NCBI RefSeq assembly: GCF_900104845.1
Contig: NZ_FNSR01000002.1
Span: forward strand, 372,001 to 436,000
Direction of reading: 5' to 3'
DNA from: Paraburkholderia caballeronis
GTDB lineage: Bacteria; Pseudomonadota; Gammaproteobacteria; Burkholderiales; Burkholderiaceae
Length of the DNA: 64,000 nucleotides
A model generated the notes under the pieces. That model saw only the letters and a program-made list of their open reading frames with translations. It did no database searches and was not told where the DNA came from. Position numbers and translations under genes: made by a program. Below, in pieces: positions 6,284-33,954 of the stretch (its first letter is position 1; the number at the start of each line of letters is the position of its first letter).

Positions 6284-7756
6284 ATGTCCGACGCTGAAGC
6301 CAATCACGCCGCGCTGCGCATATTCGACTCTGTGAGGGCGCTTGCTTTCATCGGCGATCTAAGCATGGGACAGCCCACCGACCATTCGTTGCGCACCGGC
6401 TGGCTGGCGGCGCGACTCGCGCACGCGGCCGGACTCGACGCATCGGTTTGCGATGCGGTCCGCGAAGTGTCGCTGCTGCGCTGGTCGGGTTGCACGGCAA
6501 ACGCAGCGGGTTTCGCGCAGGTGTTCGGCGACGACGTGGCAATCCGCACCGCGATGCTCGAAAGCAGGCCGGGCATGGCCGAGGCAATCGGTAATGCCGG
6601 CGCAGCCATGGTCCCGCTGGCGCAGGTTCACTGCGAAGTATCGGGCGAGGTCGCGCGCATACTGGGCCTTTCGACGATGACCGAAACGGCGTTACGGCAC
6701 ATTTTCGAAACCTGGGACGGCAACGGACTGCCCGCGCGACTCGCGCACGAGAAGGTCCCGGCGGCCGTGCTGGTCGTCGCGCTGGCCGGCGATCTGGAGG
6801 TGTTCAGCCGCGCGTACGGCGTCGAGCAGGCGCTCGGATTGATCGGGCAACGCGCCGGCACGAGATATCCGGCGCGCCTCGTCGAGACGGCTGCAAGCCA
6901 CGCCGGAAACTGGCTGGCGGAACTGGAGCGTGCATCGCTGGCCGATTTCGATGCCGCGCTGGCGACGTCCGACATGCAGGGTTCGACGTCGGCGGAATTG
7001 ATCGCCGACGTCATCGATCTGAAGTTGCCGTGGATGACCGGTTTTTCGCGTTCGGTCGCGGTGACGGCGGCCGGGTGTTACGCCCGTCTCGCGTCGGACG
7101 ATGCCGGGCGCGAACTCGTGTACCGGGCTGGCCTGATTCACGGCATCGGCCGGGCCGCCGTGCCTAACGACGTGTGGAACCGGCCCGCGTCGTTGCCTGC
7201 GAGCGCGTGGGAAAAGGTGCGGCTGGTGCCGTACTGGACAGAGCGCGCCGGCAGGCAGACCGGCGCGCTGGGCGAAGCCGCCGTACTCGCGTCGTATGCG
7301 TACGAACGGCAGGACGGTTCAGGATATTTCCGCGGCGCGCGCGATCCGGCGCTGACACTGGAGGCTCGCGTGCTCGCTGCGTCGGTGGCGTGGGTTGCGT
7401 TGCGCTCGATGCGGCCGTGGCGCGCCGCGCTGACCGACGAGGCCGCCGCCCGCCTGTTGCGGGAAGAAGCAGCAAACGGCCGGTTATGCGGCGAGGCGGT
7501 GGGCGCGCTGGTGGCGGAAGGCGTTCCCGTCGCGAAACGCGTCGCACGAGGCGCGTCGCATAGCCCGCGCCTGTCTGCGCGAGAAATCGACGTGCTGCGC
7601 GCGATCTCCCGGGGTGCGAGCAACAAGGAGGTCGCCCAGGCGCTGACCATGAGTCCGAGCACGGTACGAACCCACGTCGAGAAGGCGTTTCGCAAACTCG
7701 AATGTTCGACGCGCGCTGCGGCGACCCTCAAGGCGTCGGCGATGGGCCTGATCTGA
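6284..7756 (+). CDS. HD-domain protein fused to LuxR-type DNA-binding domain
   Basis: Regulator-like protein of 490 residues. The N-terminal part has an HD-superfamily look (DHSLRTGWLAARLAHAAGLD near residue 34). The second half (about 275-380) resembles an HD-GYP domain, but its signature motifs are altered. Where HD-GYP enzymes have HDIGK it has HGIGR, and the GYP-side motif reads RQDGSGYFRG. Cyclic-di-GMP hydrolysis is thus doubtful, and a sensory role is more likely. The C-terminus (about 425-490) is a LuxR/FixJ helix-turn-helix with LSAREIDVLRAISRGASNKE and SPSTVRTHVEKAFRKL. It is transcribed divergently from the DUF308 gene across the 6098-6129 palindrome. The ribosome binding site is weak. 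Confidence 0.85.
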   Translation: MSDAEANHAALRIFDSVRALAFIGDLSMGQPTDHSLRTGWLAARLAHAAGLDASVCDAVREVSLLRWSGCTANAAGFAQVFGDDVAIRTAMLESRPGMAEAIGNAGAAMVPLAQVHCEVSGEVARILGLSTMTETALRHIFETWDGNGLPARLAHEKVPAAVLVVALAGDLEVFSRAYGVEQALGLIGQRAGTRYPARLVETAASHAGNWLAELERASLADFDAALATSDMQGSTSAELIADVIDLKLPWMTGFSRSVAVTAAGCYARLASDDAGRELVYRAGLIHGIGRAAVPNDVWNRPASLPASAWEKVRLVPYWTERAGRQTGALGEAAVLASYAYERQDGSGYFRGARDPALTLEARVLAASVAWVALRSMRPWRAALTDEAAARLLREEAANGRLCGEAVGALVAEGVPVAKRVARGASHSPRLSAREIDVLRAISRGASNKEVAQALTMSPSTVRTHVEKAFRKLECSTRAAATLKASAMGLI

Positions 7757-7774
7757 CGGCATGGCGTCGCCGCG

Positions 7775-8116
7775 TCAACGAAGCGGATCGGCCAGCACGA
7801 TATCCGGCACGCCGCCCGCCTGCACCATGATATAGACGACGTCCTCGTCCGTTTCGTTCTTGACGTGATGAATGACGCCGGGATCGATCGAGTAGAAATC
7901 GCGTACCCGGGCGCTCCGGATATGGCCGTCGATATTCAACTCTACGGTCAGCACGCCGCTCACCACGAGAAACCGGTCGCTGACGTTCGTATGGTGATGC
8001 CATTGCGTTTCGCCACCGGCTTGAACCGTCGTTCGGTGGACCGTGTAGCCATCCTCGCGCAACAGCATCTGATACTGCACCTTGCCATTGGCAAGCGGAA
8101 TATCCTTGTCGTCCAT
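7775..8116 (-). CDS. Cupin domain protein
   Basis: Single-domain cupin of 113 residues if ATG 8116 is used; that start has GAGGG eight bases upstream, while the alternative ATG 8131 has only a weak site. The first cupin motif is visible as GGETQWHHHTNVSDRFLVVSG, with the metal-ligand histidines and a Glu replaced by Asp, and the second around DPGVIHHVKN. Such proteins bind a metal and act as small isomerases, dioxygenases or sensors; the substrate is unknown. It is convergent with the HD/LuxR gene (18 bases apart) and on the same strand as the DUF308 fragment just upstream. Confidence 0.88.
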   Translation of the reverse strand: MDDKDIPLANGKVQYQMLLREDGYTVHRTTVQAGGETQWHHHTNVSDRFLVVSGVLTVELNIDGHIRSARVRDFYSIDPGVIHHVKNETDEDVVYIMVQAGGVPDIVLADPLR

Positions 8117-26679: not shown

Positions 26680-27039
26680 ATGGAATACGACATCGGGCGG
26701 GCCATCCGCAGGTTTCCCGACCAGCGGGACGAACTCACGCGCAGCGCCGAAAAAGCATCGAAGCTCAGGCACGCGTGCGGCTGCGCGATGGGCGCGGCCT
26801 GCTTCGCCGCGACGACGCTCGCGTTCGTCGCGATGCTGATCTCAAGGCCGCCCGACTGGGCCGGCCTGCCATTGCGCATCGGCGCGGGCGTGCTGGCCGC
26901 GCTGCTCGCGACGGCGCTCGGCAAGGTCGCCGGCATCGCGTTCGCGCGGCTGCGGCTTGCGTGGCTCGTGCGCGGACTGCAACGCCGTTATCCGGTGGAG
27001 GATCGACACGATGACCACCTGCACCCGCTGGGTCGATAA
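26680..27039 (+). CDS. Small membrane protein upstream of the Cys/Trp-repeat phosphoesterase
   Basis: Protein of 119 residues with two hydrophobic segments (about 32-54 and 62-86) between polar ends. It starts MEYDIGRAIRRFPDQRDELT after an AAGGA-type site. No family is recognised. The last 29 bases overlap the start of the phosphoesterase gene, in another frame, so the two are translationally linked. A membrane-anchoring or partner role for the phosphoesterase, whose repeat domain is also partly hydrophobic, is a reasonable guess but nothing more. Confidence 0.72.
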   Translation: MEYDIGRAIRRFPDQRDELTRSAEKASKLRHACGCAMGAACFAATTLAFVAMLISRPPDWAGLPLRIGAGVLAALLATALGKVAGIAFARLRLAWLVRGLQRRYPVEDRHDDHLHPLGR

Positions 27040-29134
27040 GTTCGTCATCACCTGCGCGGACTGGACCAACGAGGTCAGCGAGACCTGCACGTCGTGGGCG
27101 GACGAAGGCGCGTATCAATGCTCGCAATGGGCGGACGAAGGTTCGAACCAGTGTTCGCAGTGGGCCGACGAAGGCTCGAACCAGTGCAGCGCGTGGGACG
27201 AATGCCACTGGTACACGCCGTGGGACTGCATCGCCGGCTTCTTCTGCAAGGCATGGTACTGGGTCGCGAACTGGGTGTGTCAGGCGTGGTACTGGGTCGC
27301 CGACTGGGTCTGCCAGGGCTGGTACTGGGTGGCGAAATGGGTGTGCAAGGGTTTCGCGTGGGTCGTCAACGCAGTGTGCATCGTGTTCTCGTGGGCGCTG
27401 CGGCTCGTCTGCGTCGCGTGGGACACGCTGCGCTGCGCGCTGCTCGCGTTCGGCCGATGGCTCGGCTCGTTAACCGGGCGCGCGGGCCGCGGAAAAACGC
27501 CGCCGCCGCGCATCGAGCGCGTGTTCGTGCTGACGCTGGAGAACCGTTCGTTCGATCATCTGTTCGGCTTCAGCGGCATCACCGGCGTCGATCCGCAAGG
27601 CAACCCGACGACGTTCAACGAAGGCTTCGATCCTGCGGTCAACAGCAACGTCGATCCGGTGACGAACGCGAACGTGTTCGTCAGCGCGCCCGCCGACTTC
27701 TTCCTGAAAGGCGTGGACGCGGACCCCGGCCACGAGTTCGAGGACACGCTCACCGCGCTCGGCGGCAGCGGCGCGGCGTATCAGCCGGTGCCGGGCGGTT
27801 ATCCGCCGATCGACAACTCGGGCTTCATCGACAACTACCATGCGCCGCGCGACGGCGAAAGCACGCCGTCGTCCACGCCCGACCGGATCATGCACTGCTT
27901 CGCCGCCGGCCAGTTGCCGGTACTGAACGCGCTCGCGCGCGAGTTCGCGGTGTGCGACTGCTGGTTCTCGTCGCTGCCCGGGCCGACGTGGCCGAACCGC
28001 TTTTTCCAGCTCGCGGCGACCTCCGGCGGACTCGACGACAGCCCCGGCAAGCTCGACGTCGTCACGAGCACGACGGTGGACGGCTATCGTTTCGAGAACG
28101 GCAACGTGTTCGACCTGCTCGACCAATACTGCATCGAGTGGAAGATTTTCGAGGGCGACGATTTCCCGGTCAGCTTCGCGCTCGAAGGAATGAACCTGAA
28201 CGAGTTGCAGGGCCGCTTCGCGTCGATGGACGATTTCGAGTCCGACCTCGGCAGCGCCGGTTTCGGCCCGAAGTTCGTGTTCATCGAGCCGAAGTACGGC
28301 GCGCACGAATTCGACGCGACCGGCCCCGGCGACTTCACGTGCGGAAACTCGATGCATCCGCTCGACGACGTGAGGCGCGGCGAGAAACTGGTGAAGCGCG
28401 TGTACGAAGGACTGCGCAACTCGCCGCTGTGGGAGAAGAGCGTGCTGCTGATCACGTTCGACGAGCACGGCGGCTTCTACGACCACGTCGCGCCGCCGCC
28501 CGCGGCGCCGCCCGGCGACCAGATCGATCAGAACTACGTGAAGCAGGGTTTCCTGTTCGACCAGTTGGGCGTGCGGGTGCCGGCGATCGTCGTGTCGCCG
28601 CTCGTGCCGCGCAACGTGATCGACCATACGCGATATGACCACACGTCGCTGCTCGCGTCGATGGAGCGGCTCTTCGGGATGAAGCCGCTGACCGCGCGCG
28701 ACGCCGCCGCGAACGACTTCCTGCATCTGCTGTCGCTCGCCGCGCCGCGCGCCGATGCGCCCGCCACGCTGCCCGCCCCCGACGACAGCCGCCCGCAGCT
28801 CGCCTGCGAAGGCGACGACGATACCGATAGCCAGTCCGCCGACCGCCTGCTGCAACAGCGTTCGACGCTGCGGCTCGCGCGCCGCGAAGGGCGCTACATG
28901 GCGCGCGCGGTCGCCGACTACCGGCTGAAGCCGTCGCAGGTCGGCTTCATGCAGGTCGCGCTGCTGAAGGTGCTGAACCGGACCACGCAGCCGGACAAGG
29001 CGCGCTGGCTCGACGCATATCGCGGCGTGCAGACCGGCATCGACGCGGCGATCTTCATGACCGACGCGAAGCTGAAAGTGAAGCACGGAATCGACGTGGT
29101 GCAGATAGAGCGGCTGGCGGCGCGGCGGCGTTAG
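27011..29134 (+). CDS. Phosphoesterase (phospholipase C/acid phosphatase family) with N-terminal Cys/Trp 11-residue repeats
   Basis: Protein of 707 residues from ATG 27011 (GGTGGAGG upstream). Residues 1-142 are a highly unusual repeat region. Cysteines stand at 4, 15, 26, 37, 48 and 59, and after a short break at 79, 90, 101, 112, 123 and 134, always 11 apart. Most are followed three residues later by Trp (C-x2-W). The first block is acidic (WADEGSNQC); the second is hydrophobic and aromatic (WYWVADWVC). Residues about 168-600 are an alkaline-phosphatase-superfamily phosphoesterase domain with LTLENRSFDHLFGF, SSLPGPTWPNRFF and FDEHGGFYDHVAPP. This family includes phospholipases C and acid phosphatases. 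No classical signal peptide is visible, so location is uncertain. Confidence 0.88.
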   Translation: MTTCTRWVDKFVITCADWTNEVSETCTSWADEGAYQCSQWADEGSNQCSQWADEGSNQCSAWDECHWYTPWDCIAGFFCKAWYWVANWVCQAWYWVADWVCQGWYWVAKWVCKGFAWVVNAVCIVFSWALRLVCVAWDTLRCALLAFGRWLGSLTGRAGRGKTPPPRIERVFVLTLENRSFDHLFGFSGITGVDPQGNPTTFNEGFDPAVNSNVDPVTNANVFVSAPADFFLKGVDADPGHEFEDTLTALGGSGAAYQPVPGGYPPIDNSGFIDNYHAPRDGESTPSSTPDRIMHCFAAGQLPVLNALAREFAVCDCWFSSLPGPTWPNRFFQLAATSGGLDDSPGKLDVVTSTTVDGYRFENGNVFDLLDQYCIEWKIFEGDDFPVSFALEGMNLNELQGRFASMDDFESDLGSAGFGPKFVFIEPKYGAHEFDATGPGDFTCGNSMHPLDDVRRGEKLVKRVYEGLRNSPLWEKSVLLITFDEHGGFYDHVAPPPAAPPGDQIDQNYVKQGFLFDQLGVRVPAIVVSPLVPRNVIDHTRYDHTSLLASMERLFGMKPLTARDAAANDFLHLLSLAAPRADAPATLPAPDDSRPQLACEGDDDTDSQSADRLLQQRSTLRLARREGRYMARAVADYRLKPSQVGFMQVALLKVLNRTTQPDKARWLDAYRGVQTGIDAAIFMTDAKLKVKHGIDVVQIERLAARRR
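27092..27346 (+). repeat. 33-bp tandem coding repeats (11-codon periodicity)
   Basis: Two blocks of imperfect 33-base repeats lie inside the phosphoesterase gene. The first (about 27092-27190) encodes copies of WADEGSNQCSQ; the second (about 27250-27346) encodes copies of WYWVADWVCQG. Third-codon positions vary between copies while the Cys and Trp codons are kept, which points to selection at protein level after old duplications. Confidence 0.85.
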
Positions 29135-30585: not shown

Positions 30586-32712
30586 ATGGTCTACCCCTCC
30601 GCCCGCGACTGGCTGTTCTCGGTCAAAACGTTTGCCGCCGCGATGCTCGCGCTGTATCTCGGCCTGCTGTTCGAGCTGCCGCGCCCGTACTGGGCGATGG
30701 CTAGCGTGTACATCGTGTCGAACCCGTTCGTCGGCGCGACCCGCTCGAAGGCGCTGTACCGCGCGCTCGGCACCGCGCTCGGCGCAGCGGGCGCGATCCT
30801 GCTGGTGCCGCCGTTCGTCGAGATGCCGCTGCTGTTCAGCATCGTCGTCGCGACGTGGACCGGCACGCTGCTGTATCTCGCGATCTCGGACCGCACCGCC
30901 CGCAGCTACGTGTTCATGCTCGCCGGCTACACGATGCCGCTGATCGCGCTGCCCACCGTCACCGATCCGGCCACGGTGTTCGACGTCGCGATCGCGCGGA
31001 CCGAGGAGATCGTTCTCGGCATCGTCTGCGCGAGCGTCGTCGGCAGCGCCGTGCTGCCGAGCCGGCTCGCGCCGACGCTGATCGAGCGCACCGACGCATG
31101 GTTCCGCGACGCCGCGTTCTACGGCCGCGAGACGCTGTCCGGCCACATCGCCGGCGCGGCGATCTCCGCGTGCCGGCAGCGGCTCGCGGCGACGGTCAAC
31201 GGGCTGGAGTTCCTGTTGAGCCAGTTGAGCTACGACCACACGCACCCGCAGATTCTCGAACGCGCGGAGGCGCTGCGCGGCCGGATGATGCTGTTCCTGC
31301 CGATCATGTCGTCGCTCGCGGACCCGATGATCGCGCTGATGCGCGACCTGAAGGTGCGCCCGCCCGGCCTCGACGAATTGCTCGCGGACACCGCGCAATG
31401 GTTCGGCGCGCCGCTCACGCACGCGCCGGACAGCGACGCGCAGGCGAGCAACGCGGCCGTCGATGCGCTGCACGCGCGGATCGCGGCGCTGCAGCCGGGC
31501 GGCGACGCGCTCGCGTCGTGGCAGGGCGCGCTGCTGTCGAACGCGTTGTGGCGGCTCGGCCAGATGATCGACATCTGGCAGGACTGCCGCGCGCTGCGCG
31601 CGAGCATCTCGCAGGAATCGGCAACGTGGCGGCCGCGCTTCCGGCACTGGCGGCTCGGCGGCACCGAGCGTTATTTCGATCGCGGGATCATGGCGTTTTC
31701 GACCGCGTCGGCGGTCGGCGCGATCATCGTCGCGTGCGGGCTGTGGATCAGTTCGGGCTGGCACGACGGCGCGGGCGCGGTCACGCTCGCGGCGGTCGCG
31801 TGCTGCTTCTTCGCGTCGCTCGACGAACCCGCGCCGCAGGTGTTCCGCTTCTTCGTCGCGACGGCCGTGGCCGTGGTGATCGCGGGGCTGTACCTGTTCG
31901 TCGTGCTGCCGCGCGTGCACGACTTCACGATGCTGGTCGTGATGTTCGCGGGGCCGTTCATCCTCGTCGGCACGCTGATACCGCGCCCGCAGTTCAACCT
32001 CGTGACGATGCTGGTCGCGGTGAACACGGCGACGTTCATCAGCATTCAGGGCGCTTACGACGCGGACTTCCTCGTGTTCCTGAACAGCAACATCGCGGGC
32101 GTCGTGGGGCTGCTGTTCGCGTTCCTCTGGACCCGCGTGACGCGCCCGTTCGGCGCGGAGCTGGCCGCCGCGCGCCTGCTGCGCTCCAGTTGGGCGGACG
32201 TCGCGCTGACCGCGTCGACGCAGCCGATCGCGGACCAGCGCAACCTCGCGTCGCGGATGCTCGACCGGCTGATGCAGCTGATTCCGCGGCTCGCGGCGTC
32301 GGACGACCACCGGCATCCGTCGATCGAGAGCTTCCGCGATCTGCGGATCGCGCTGAACGCGCTCGACCTGCGCCGCTCGCGGCACCGGCTCACCGGCGAA
32401 CTGCCGGCGACGATCGACGGCGTGCTCGCCGGCGTCAGCCGCTATTACGCGGGCTGCGCGGACCGCCGCGCGCGCCAGCCGGTGCCGCCCGCGTTGATGG
32501 CGACGATCGACGACGCGCTCGGCCGCGTGACGTCGCACGCCGCCGCGACGACGCGCGCGGTGAACGCCGAAGGCCCGGCCGCGAGCACCGCGCTGCGTGC
32601 GTCGCAACGCTGGCTGCGCGAGACGCGGCACGCGCTCGTCGGGCTGCGGCTGTCGCTCTTCCCCGCGGCGGCCGGCCAGCCGCCGCAACCCGCTAGCGAG
32701 GCGCAGGCATGA
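30586..32712 (+). CDS. FUSC family inner-membrane efflux protein (AaeB-like)
   Basis: Membrane protein of 708 residues with the FUSC layout. A first cluster of about six transmembrane segments (residues 10-165, starting LFSVKTFAAAMLALYLGLLF) is followed by a long soluble region (about 170-365), then a second membrane cluster (about 370-520, FSTASAVGAIIVACGLWISS) and a C-terminal soluble domain. AaeB-type proteins export aromatic carboxylic acids such as p-hydroxybenzoate together with an HlyD adaptor. Here the DUF1656 (AaeX-like), HlyD and outer-membrane genes follow directly, making a complete tripartite system. Substrate class is inferred from this organisation. Confidence 0.92.
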   Translation: MVYPSARDWLFSVKTFAAAMLALYLGLLFELPRPYWAMASVYIVSNPFVGATRSKALYRALGTALGAAGAILLVPPFVEMPLLFSIVVATWTGTLLYLAISDRTARSYVFMLAGYTMPLIALPTVTDPATVFDVAIARTEEIVLGIVCASVVGSAVLPSRLAPTLIERTDAWFRDAAFYGRETLSGHIAGAAISACRQRLAATVNGLEFLLSQLSYDHTHPQILERAEALRGRMMLFLPIMSSLADPMIALMRDLKVRPPGLDELLADTAQWFGAPLTHAPDSDAQASNAAVDALHARIAALQPGGDALASWQGALLSNALWRLGQMIDIWQDCRALRASISQESATWRPRFRHWRLGGTERYFDRGIMAFSTASAVGAIIVACGLWISSGWHDGAGAVTLAAVACCFFASLDEPAPQVFRFFVATAVAVVIAGLYLFVVLPRVHDFTMLVVMFAGPFILVGTLIPRPQFNLVTMLVAVNTATFISIQGAYDADFLVFLNSNIAGVVGLLFAFLWTRVTRPFGAELAAARLLRSSWADVALTASTQPIADQRNLASRMLDRLMQLIPRLAASDDHRHPSIESFRDLRIALNALDLRRSRHRLTGELPATIDGVLAGVSRYYAGCADRRARQPVPPALMATIDDALGRVTSHAAATTRAVNAEGPAASTALRASQRWLRETRHALVGLRLSLFPAAAGQPPQPASEAQA

Positions 32713-32764
32713 CGCGCCTGCTTTCCGTTTCCGTATTCGTTGCCGGTTCCGGCCGCAGACCGTC

Positions 32765-32974
32765 ATGATCGGCGAAATCGACATACTCGGCGTATTCGTG
32801 CCTTCGGTGCTGCTGCTGATGCTGATCGCGTATCTGGTCAACATCGTGATCCGCACGGTGCTCACGCGGATCGGCTTTTACCGGCTGGTCTGGCATCGTT
32901 CCATTTTCGATCTCGGCATCTACGTTCTGGTGCTGGGTGTCATCGTCGTCGTTTCACACCGTCTCGTAACGTGA
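32765..32974 (+). CDS. DUF1656 (AaeX-like) small membrane protein
   Basis: Protein of 69 residues with two transmembrane segments: about 12-34 (PSVLLLMLIAYLVNIVI) and 48-64. It starts MIGEIDILGVFVPSV, the characteristic DUF1656 beginning. These peptides are found in aaeXAB-type operons, with unknown function in efflux. The stop codon overlaps the GTG start of the HlyD gene by four bases (GTGA), so translation is coupled. Confidence 0.92.
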   Translation: MIGEIDILGVFVPSVLLLMLIAYLVNIVIRTVLTRIGFYRLVWHRSIFDLGIYVLVLGVIVVVSHRLVT

Positions 32975-33954
32975 AAAAAACCTGGTTTTCCGCTGGGCAG
33001 ATCCTGCTCACGCTGATCGTCGTCGCGATCGCCGCCGTCGTGCTGTGGCGCCTGGTCGATTACTACATGTTCTCGCCGTGGACGCGCGACGGCCACGTGC
33101 GCGCCGACGTGATCCAGGTCGCGCCGGACGTGTCCGGCCTCATCACGTCGGTCGAGGTGATCGACAACCAGGAAGTGAAGCGCGGCCAGGTGCTGTTCGT
33201 GATCGACCAGGCGCGCTACACGCTCGCGCTGCGGCTCGCGCAGGCGAACGTCGAGCAGCGCCGCGCGACGCTCGCGCAGGCGCGCCGCGAATACGCGCGC
33301 AACATCGCGCTCGGCAACCTCGTGGCGAGCGAAACGCTCGAAGAAAGCCGCACGCGCGTCGAACAGGGCGAAGCGGCGCTCGACGACGCGCAGGTGCAGG
33401 TCGACACCGCGCGCCTGAACCTGCAGCGCACGACGATCGTGAGCCCGGTCGACGGCTACCTGAACGACCGCGCGCCGCGCGTCGGCGAGTTCGTGACGTC
33501 GGGGCGCGCGGTGCTGTCGGTGGTGGACATGCATTCGTTCCGCGTCGACGGCTACTTCGAGGAAACCAAGCTGCACGGCATCCACATCGGCCAGCCGGTC
33601 GACATCTCGGTGATGGGCGAGCGGCGTCCGCTGCGCGGCCACGTGCAGAGCATCGTCGCCGCGATCGAGGACCGCGACCGCACGCAGAGCCCGAACCTGC
33701 TGCCGAACGTGAACCCGGCGTTCAGCTGGGTGCGGCTCGCGCAGCGCATTCCGGTGCGCGTCGCGCTCGACGAGGTGCCGGACGACTTCCGGATGATCGC
33801 GGGCCGCACCGCGACGGTCGCGGTGCGTGCCGGCGACGTGTCCGCGAAACGCGGCGCGGCCGGCGCAGGGGCAAGCGATGCGGCTGGGGCGTCGGCACCG
33901 TCCGCCGCGTCTGCCGCCCTGCCCGCGCCAGCCGCTTCCGGAGCGTCGCAATGA
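32971..33954 (+). CDS. HlyD family periplasmic adaptor (AaeA/EmrA-like)
   Basis: Membrane-fusion protein of 327 residues from GTG 32971. One N-terminal transmembrane anchor (about 9-28, LTLIVVAIAAVVLW) is followed by the barrel-sandwich segment VIQVAPDVSGLITSVEVIDNQ, a helical hairpin (about 85-145) and the return strand LNLQRTTIVSPVDGYLNDRA. The C-terminal 35 residues are Ala/Gly/Pro-rich and probably disordered. It bridges the FUSC inner-membrane protein and the outer-membrane channel encoded next, with a four-base ATGA overlap. Confidence 0.93.
   Translation: MKKTWFSAGQILLTLIVVAIAAVVLWRLVDYYMFSPWTRDGHVRADVIQVAPDVSGLITSVEVIDNQEVKRGQVLFVIDQARYTLALRLAQANVEQRRATLAQARREYARNIALGNLVASETLEESRTRVEQGEAALDDAQVQVDTARLNLQRTTIVSPVDGYLNDRAPRVGEFVTSGRAVLSVVDMHSFRVDGYFEETKLHGIHIGQPVDISVMGERRPLRGHVQSIVAAIEDRDRTQSPNLLPNVNPAFSWVRLAQRIPVRVALDEVPDDFRMIAGRTATVAVRAGDVSAKRGAAGAGASDAAGASAPSAASAALPAPAASGASQ

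Follow-up and report, generated by a model that had tools for sequence, protein, structure and literature searches.

A matched-arm Cys/Trp repeat module with a small CGC membrane protein gene beside it, carried by unrelated enzymes in scattered bacteria

What kind of protein segment places a cysteine at exactly every eleventh residue, and why is it joined to a phosphoesterase and preceded by a gene for a small membrane protein? The question is raised by a locus of Paraburkholderia caballeronis within a stretch of 64,000 nucleotides (contig NZ_FNSR01000002.1, positions 372,001 to 436,000), the whole of which is called the window below. The features concerned are as follows, with window coordinates.

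26680..27039, + strand: partner gene, 119 aa, with two hydrophobic segments (about 32-55 and 61-89); from the reading frame, alignment A2, hydropathy and co-occurrence
27011..29134, + strand: hairpin-phosphoesterase gene, 707 aa; from the open reading frame, ATG at 27011
27017..27190, + strand: arm A, predicted helix 3-60, six repeats, family consensus C-S-x-W-A-D-E-G-S-N-Q; from AlphaFold and the repeat profile
27191..27217, + strand: predicted turn, residues 61-69, containing Cys65 (Cys73 belongs to the start of arm B); from AlphaFold
27218..27472, + strand: arm B, predicted helix 70-154, six repeats, family consensus C-[QK]-A-W-Y-W-V-A-[NK]-W-V; from AlphaFold, the repeat profile and hydropathy
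27512..28681, + strand: PF04185 phosphoesterase (phospholipase C-like) domain, residues 168-557; Pfam E 3.4e-63

A sequence-only reading of this locus had described twelve cysteines in two blocks, spaced exactly 11 residues apart and mostly followed three residues later by Trp. Both points were confirmed: the ladder cysteines lie at 4, 15, 26, 37, 48 and 59 and at 79, 90, 101, 112, 123 and 134, and the residue at +3 is Trp in 10 of the 12 cases (6/6 in the first block and 4/6 in the second, where the other two are Phe). Cysteines outside the ladders occur within residues 1-142 at 65, 73 and 142. With 10 Cys pairs at spacing 11 the protein stands above all of 20,000 shuffles of residues 1-160, which over any period from 3 to 29 gave no more than 7. 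The two identical CSQWADEGSNQ units differ at 4 of 11 codons, so the repeat in the window is not the product of recent DNA slippage. Arm B becomes more hydrophobic towards the enzyme, with Kyte-Doolittle values up to 2.15 and the top at 118-136; among the hydropathy windows listed, values above 1.6 occur only close to the enzyme. The claim that no named domain has this pattern also stood, since residues 1-158 match no model in Pfam or NCBIfam. A PDB sequence search with the same residues gave no match up to E 10, no PHROGs model matches the hairpin repeat, and no paper on a Cys/Trp repeat domain was found in the open-licence literature. A survey of hendecad families, reportedly published in J Struct Biol in 2023, might already include these Cys/Trp sequences.

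A search with residues 1-170 returned 433 proteins. Two Cys ladders of period 11 are present in 120/120 of the best 120 of the 433 (the window's own cluster, P0001, 98% identical, included) while other residues vary, as had been anticipated from the window alone. For further counts, the two protein lists used (best 120 of 433 and best 120 of 335) were taken together minus fragments, giving 191 proteins. Thirty short, mostly fragmentary proteins (P0121-P0150) are outside this set; 20 of them have two ladders (runs of at least 2), equal in 12 and unequal in 8. Across the 191 proteins, arm A has the profile C-S/T-x-W-A-D-E-G-S-N-Q (962 units, 610 distinct), with Trp in 96% of +3 positions, and arm B the profile C-Q/K-A-W/F-Y-W-V-A-K/N-W-V (963 units, 433 distinct), with Trp in 96% of +5 positions. 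Charge per unit is about -1.1 in arm A and +0.6 in arm B, and the mean repeat scores +2.5 and -3.9 kcal/mol, respectively, on the Wimley-White interface scale. All 12 ladder cysteines are invariant in alignment A1 (51 rows), partly by construction, as rows were chosen for their ladders. Among divergent members, L013 has one unbroken ladder of 14 cysteines, by eye seven amphipathic units followed by seven hydrophobic ones, and P0145/P0146 have one unbroken ladder of 10. The Cys/Trp repeat is a real protein module without a name, found in scattered bacteria.

The two arms have equal numbers of repeats in 180 of the 191 proteins, namely (6,6) in 73, (7,7) in 56, (5,5) in 49 and (8,8) in 2, with 11 unequal, over a range of 4 to 8 repeats per arm. 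When the pairing of arms was permuted 20,000 times, equality was obtained in a mean of 64 and a maximum of 88 proteins. Changes in copy number were followed on a FastTree tree of the enzyme domain alone, built from the 153 of 191 proteins with at least 600 aa, N-terminal ladders and the ENR motif, and giving long-branch warnings. The best tree requires a minimum of 22 changes in arm A and 23 in arm B. In independent pairs of these 153 phosphoesterases on well-supported branches, the arms changed together in 7.7 of 10 and never in opposite directions (median p 0.008); with a threshold at 7 copies they did so in 6 of 7 (p 0.031). A 7/7 protein (P0003) is nested in a 5/5 clade and an 8/8 protein (P0034) in a 6/6 clade. 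Such joint changes are what one-to-one pairing of repeats would predict. Whole-domain replacement by recombination could also yield them, but by itself it leaves the equal numbers across different fusions unexplained. Charge complementarity between arms was rejected at the level of whole proteins, where mean charges are uncorrelated (Spearman 0.08, n=191). At the level of repeats, antiparallel in-register pairing is the most negative (-0.33, with other offsets up to +0.32), a value confounded by end repeats that are atypical in both arms. Matched numbers in two blocks of different sequence, changing together in evolution, are unusual evidence from sequence alone of arms that measure each other, and the matched-arm module is also a natural template from which to build helical hairpins whose length can be programmed.

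AlphaFold models of two full-length proteins bear on the shape of the module; their structure-search matches are dominated by the enzyme domains. In the window protein, helices 3-60 and 70-154 are predicted on either side of a turn (mean pLDDT 80.8; arms mostly 68-83, residues 1-10 at 58, and the turn region, residues 61-80, at a mean of 53-60). In L010, a propeller fusion, the helices are 11-81 and 86-152 (mean 86.7; hairpin mostly 82-92, falling to 64-76 near the turn). One antiparallel helical hairpin is therefore predicted in two unrelated fusions, with an acidic arm, a turn and a Trp/Tyr/Val-rich arm. The earlier proposal of a regular helical or solenoid rod kept its helical part in both models; the solenoid was set aside in favour of the predicted two-arm hairpin, with which the matched repeat numbers agree. 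In L010 each of the seven Cys pairs across the arms has a position sum of 166, against 167 for the helix ends, so that the Cys ladders would be level in the propeller type and Cys could face Cys. For the phosphoesterase model the corresponding sums are 138 (Cys pairs) and 130 (helix ends), with a low-confidence turn; level rungs are thus clear in the models for the propeller type only. AlphaFold takes no account of a membrane, and repeats yield weak contact information, which qualifies both hairpin models. The repeat has the 11-residue periodicity of hendecads, and arm A places C0/W3/A4/G7 at the 3+4+4 core positions (0, 3, 4, 7), whereas the mean arm B repeat is weakly helical; the helices themselves are predictions. 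The mean arm A repeat has a moment of 3.4 at 98 degrees vs. 2.7 at 180 degrees, a helical pattern, and that of arm B 4.3 at 180 degrees vs. 1.3 at 98 degrees, an alternation that taken alone would fit a strand more readily than a helix.

The small two-helix membrane protein encoded just upstream had been suggested as a partner. Its gene overlaps the hairpin-phosphoesterase gene by 29 nt, and the product has a basic N-terminal part, a CGC motif at residues 33-35 before the first hydrophobic segment, and a GK...G...AR tail. In alignment A2 (10 rows) C33, G34, C35 and K82 are invariant, and the nine relatives are 20-37% identical to the window's protein; the kind of protein is kept better than its sequence. 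The profile was made from the window and L001-L006, L008, L010 and L011, where matches arise by construction; matches outside the sample were found at L007/L046, L009, L013/L043, L045, L053 and L054. Altogether the partner is adjacent or one ORF off for 16 of the 17 repeat genes whose surroundings were inspected (adjoining in the window, L001-L011, L045, L053 and L054; one ORF off in L043), L011/L053 and L045/L054 being close pairs by eye. At L042 no partner occurs within 15 kb, and at six PF04185 genes without the repeat none was found in stretches of 4.2-4.4 kb. Among 398 genomes of the phylum, with at most nine candidates scored per genome, the profile matched the two with the repeat, G000 and G256 (in G256 downstream of the repeat gene, with one ORF between), and marginally G358 (E 9e-4). 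The small upstream gene is a true partner of the repeat gene, and the gene pair is kept, as suggested.

Several observations concern this partner family and its surroundings. Putative metalloproteases with the repeat (P0159, P0217, L024) have a hydrophobic stretch of their own ahead of the repeats, by eye; at L024/L042, the one of these whose neighbourhood was inspected, the partner gene is missing, as if the hydrophobic stretch took over the partner's role in cis. In L009 two partner-like frames stand in tandem ahead of one repeat gene (7152-7514; within 6971-8017). Genome G433 carries a diverged two-TM copy without CGC (L044:7958-8407, - strand), with no repeat gene in the surrounding 10.6 kb and beside a 459-aa protein without a Pfam match (L044:8843-10222, - strand); this may be an earlier, or a separate, role of the family. 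Holin superfamily III (PF07332) matches 2 of 10 partner members at E up to 0.1 (best 0.00042), and the window's partner scores 15.8 bits, below the cut-off of 28.4. Large TcA-like genes lie near the module in two Chitinophagaceae records and one from Acetobacteraceae (L001:77-5785, L002:48-7652, L006:4152-7490), with PF18276 in all three and also PF20220 and PF18413 in L001 and L002; at E 1e-8 the other 13 of 16 loci compared have no relatives of them. Directly downstream of PF04185 genes of Azospirillum and Sinorhizobium that lack the fusion, a small protein is encoded with a few bases of overlap (L049:3045-3596, L050:2961-3473) and has a CGCFMEKK Cys motif close to its end.

Fusion to a phosphoesterase holds for the window protein, where the PF04185 score is 214.4 bits against a curated cut-off of 23. 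Its motifs ENR..DH and DEHGGFYDH, which we take to be those of PF04185 phosphoesterases, are conserved in A1 (E177, N178, R179, D182, H183, D484, E485, G487, G488, F489, Y490, D491 and H492 invariant; H486 in at least 90%). For the phosphocholine-specific phospholipase C model TIGR03396 it scores 98.6 bits, below the cut-off of 580.25, and the closest solved structure by sequence and fold (Foldseek best match) is plant NPC4 (8haw). The module is not confined to this enzyme. The hairpin is N-terminal in phosphoesterases and galactose-oxidase-like propellers, and in L013 in a putative reprolysin-like protease with HEAGH (Pfam 17.4 bits, under the cut-off). It is C-terminal in subtilases (P0059, P0151-P0153, P0184) and in a putative metalloprotease with HEG(Y/F)H (P0159, P0217, L024), for which P0159 and P0217 have no Pfam match. 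The hairpin is a mobile domain, not tied to phosphoesterases.

Eleven loci from several phyla include Chitinophagaceae, Rhodanobacter, Lysobacterales, Acetobacteraceae, Caulobacter, Streptomyces, Geothrix and others. The repeat is found in 2/398, 1/395, 1/296 and 2/297 genomes of four phyla, each count including its centre genome, and among 40 relatives searched only in the window's own genome; the module is rare and patchy. Within 24 genomes of the genus, the upstream LysR gene occurs in 1, its own (E 1e-80), and the downstream HAD gene in 23 (E 1e-60), so the module seems to belong to an accessory stretch beside a core gene. Beyond the HAD gene lie ordinary FUSC-family and HlyD-like genes of the aromatic acid or drug efflux type (30586-33951). 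Carriage by phages or plasmids was rejected: no relative of the repeat was found in viral_contigs (close relatives only) or phages, and although 152 plasmid records matched in tblastn, the 10 matches listed all start at query residue 160 or later. A defence system was rejected as well, as the sole PADLOC match among six proteins was that of P0151 to a generic subtilase model. Simple replacement of a signal peptide by the module found no support for this enzyme type on comparison with the six nearest PF04185 genes without the repeat, taken from plasmid records: five begin at the enzyme and have no signal peptide, and the sixth (P. sabiae) is uninformative, its annotated start lying inside the domain. 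Separately, Cys374, Cys444 and Cys599 of the window enzyme are invariant in 51 aligned fused phosphoesterases and present in none of the six non-fused relatives (position 374 falls in a gap in two of these and position 599 in one); the three cysteines may reflect a location with oxidising conditions or a contact made with the hairpin. In propeller fusions, C563 is the only Cys outside the hairpin kept at 90% or more.

The reading that we prefer, at a probability of about 0.48, is that the two genes form a module which docks enzymes lacking a signal peptide at the membrane. The first gene would supply a small membrane protein that carries the CGC motif and is predicted to have two transmembrane segments, and the second an enzyme bearing a long antiparallel hairpin of 11-residue repeats. 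Repeat i of the acidic arm is predicted to be the neighbour of aromatic-arm repeat N+1-i, the two arms meeting along a shared stripe of Cys, Trp or another aromatic at +3, a small or aromatic residue at +4 and Gly/Ala at +7. The free side of the Trp/Tyr/Val-rich arm would partition into the membrane interface, its hydrophobic base perhaps dipping into the bilayer, while the acidic arm would shield it on the water side and the CGC protein would act as the cognate receptor. For the window phosphoesterase, a phospholipase-like active site would thereby be placed on its lipid substrate.

Arm B is strongly interface-seeking (about -3.9 kcal/mol per unit). It is too polar by Kyte-Doolittle, except near the enzyme, and too variable in length by whole units for a fixed transmembrane span to be likely; this favours a hairpin that lies in the membrane plane or enters it in part, its acidic arm towards water and the CGC protein receiving it. 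A docking device also makes sense for this enzyme class, since NPC4, in a passage of PMC9837106 that cites others, has a separate membrane tether, the S-acylated Cys533. Against docking, the additive interface scale ignores the face of arm B packed on arm A, a plain anchor leaves the retention of ladder cysteines unexplained, and the register of the phosphoesterase model (130 vs. 138) fits imperfectly; the strand-like alternation of arm B and the uncorrelated mean charges of the arms also count against it. Among the three roles originally offered, membrane association is the best fit, disulfide stapling is possible, and metal binding found no direct support. If the module does dock or export signal-peptide-less enzymes, it would be a targeting route that has gone unrecognised, and re-annotation would be due for the many proteins carrying it that are labelled 'phospholipase C', subtilase or Kelch. 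A wider version is possible though on the doubtful side: a general bacterial targeting system, in which the hairpin is a handle on either end of unrelated enzymes that is recognised, inserted or exported by the dedicated CGC protein, with cross-arm thiol pairing in the mechanism, in principle a bacterial counterpart of Mia40 and its hairpin substrates.

It is unlikely, in our estimate, that the cysteines themselves are the point, with level ladders forming disulfide rungs that staple the hairpin and a CGC protein that makes or exchanges them and so drives folding or export of the enzyme. The level pairs of L010 would allow it, CGC is invariant in the ten aligned partners, and the three extra cysteines of fused phosphoesterases, absent from the six non-fused relatives, point the same way. 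A precedent exists in Mia40, whose CPC motif forms the disulfides of antiparallel helices, as a passage of PMC7925007 describes. However, judged by eye, the basic segments at both ends of the partner suggest a cytoplasmic position for CGC, an environment that usually keeps thiols reduced; the few neighbouring genes scanned include no recognisable export gene, the Cys register fits poorly in the phosphoesterase model, propeller fusions retain a single Cys outside the hairpin, and the diverged L044 partner has no CGC.

We likewise think it improbable that the aromatic arms are buried against one another in an oligomeric stalk or tube, acidic arms outside, forming a soluble rod or channel, variable in length, that carries or delivers enzymes. 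In its favour, nearly every side of arm B is hydrophobic and its helical moment is weak, and arms of 4 to 8 repeats are unlike a bilayer-spanning helix; the TcA-like genes in three loci would also fit, but they have no relative at E 1e-8 in the other 13 loci compared, and a soluble bundle leaves the tightly linked two-TM partner without a role. A ladder of thiophilic metals or a redox cofactor bound by the repeated cysteines, with the partner moving metal, would draw on the ladders in all of the best 120 of 433 proteins and on the CGC motif, yet cysteines in one arm are three helical turns apart, the profile has no conserved His or other usual ligand beside Cys, and the unrelated enzymes share no evident metal need, which makes it very improbable. 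A low-complexity or slippage artefact with no selected structure, to which near-identical units and varying copy number might point, is refuted by the synonymous divergence of identical units, by ladders in all of the best 120 of 433 proteins and across several phyla, and by matched copy numbers and partner linkage.

Known systems resemble the module in parts. The propeller fusions (e.g. L010) are galactose-oxidase-like by sequence and fold only, at 13-18% identity to galactose oxidase and the AA5 family, and bear the hairpin. The window protein has its catalytic domain in common with NPC4 and bacterial PF04185 enzymes; NPC4 has its own C-terminal domain and lipid tether, where the window protein has the N-terminal Cys/Trp hairpin. 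In mitochondria, twin-CX9C hairpins are handled by Mia40. Like the predicted module, these CHCH proteins have antiparallel helices with Cys repeated along each arm, and a CxC-motif protein, in Mia40 (CHCHD4) as possibly here, is the partner, a resemblance in working only. Unlike them, the module has C-x10-C rather than C-x9-C spacing, usually five to eight Cys per arm rather than two, an aromatic arm and a bacterial host, and its partner, unlike Mia40, has two TM segments and no Pfam match above cut-off. Hendecad coiled coils share the period of 11, the small or hydrophobic residues at 0, 3, 4 and 7 of arm A, and long helices (here predicted). The module differs from them in its Cys at 0 and the Trp at nearly every +3 of arm A, in arms that differ strongly in polarity and match in number, and in its mobility on enzymes with a partner gene. 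No description of the Cys/Trp code, of the matched arms or of the dedicated partner was found in the open-licence literature searched; hendecad helices arranged in a hairpin are a known building principle.
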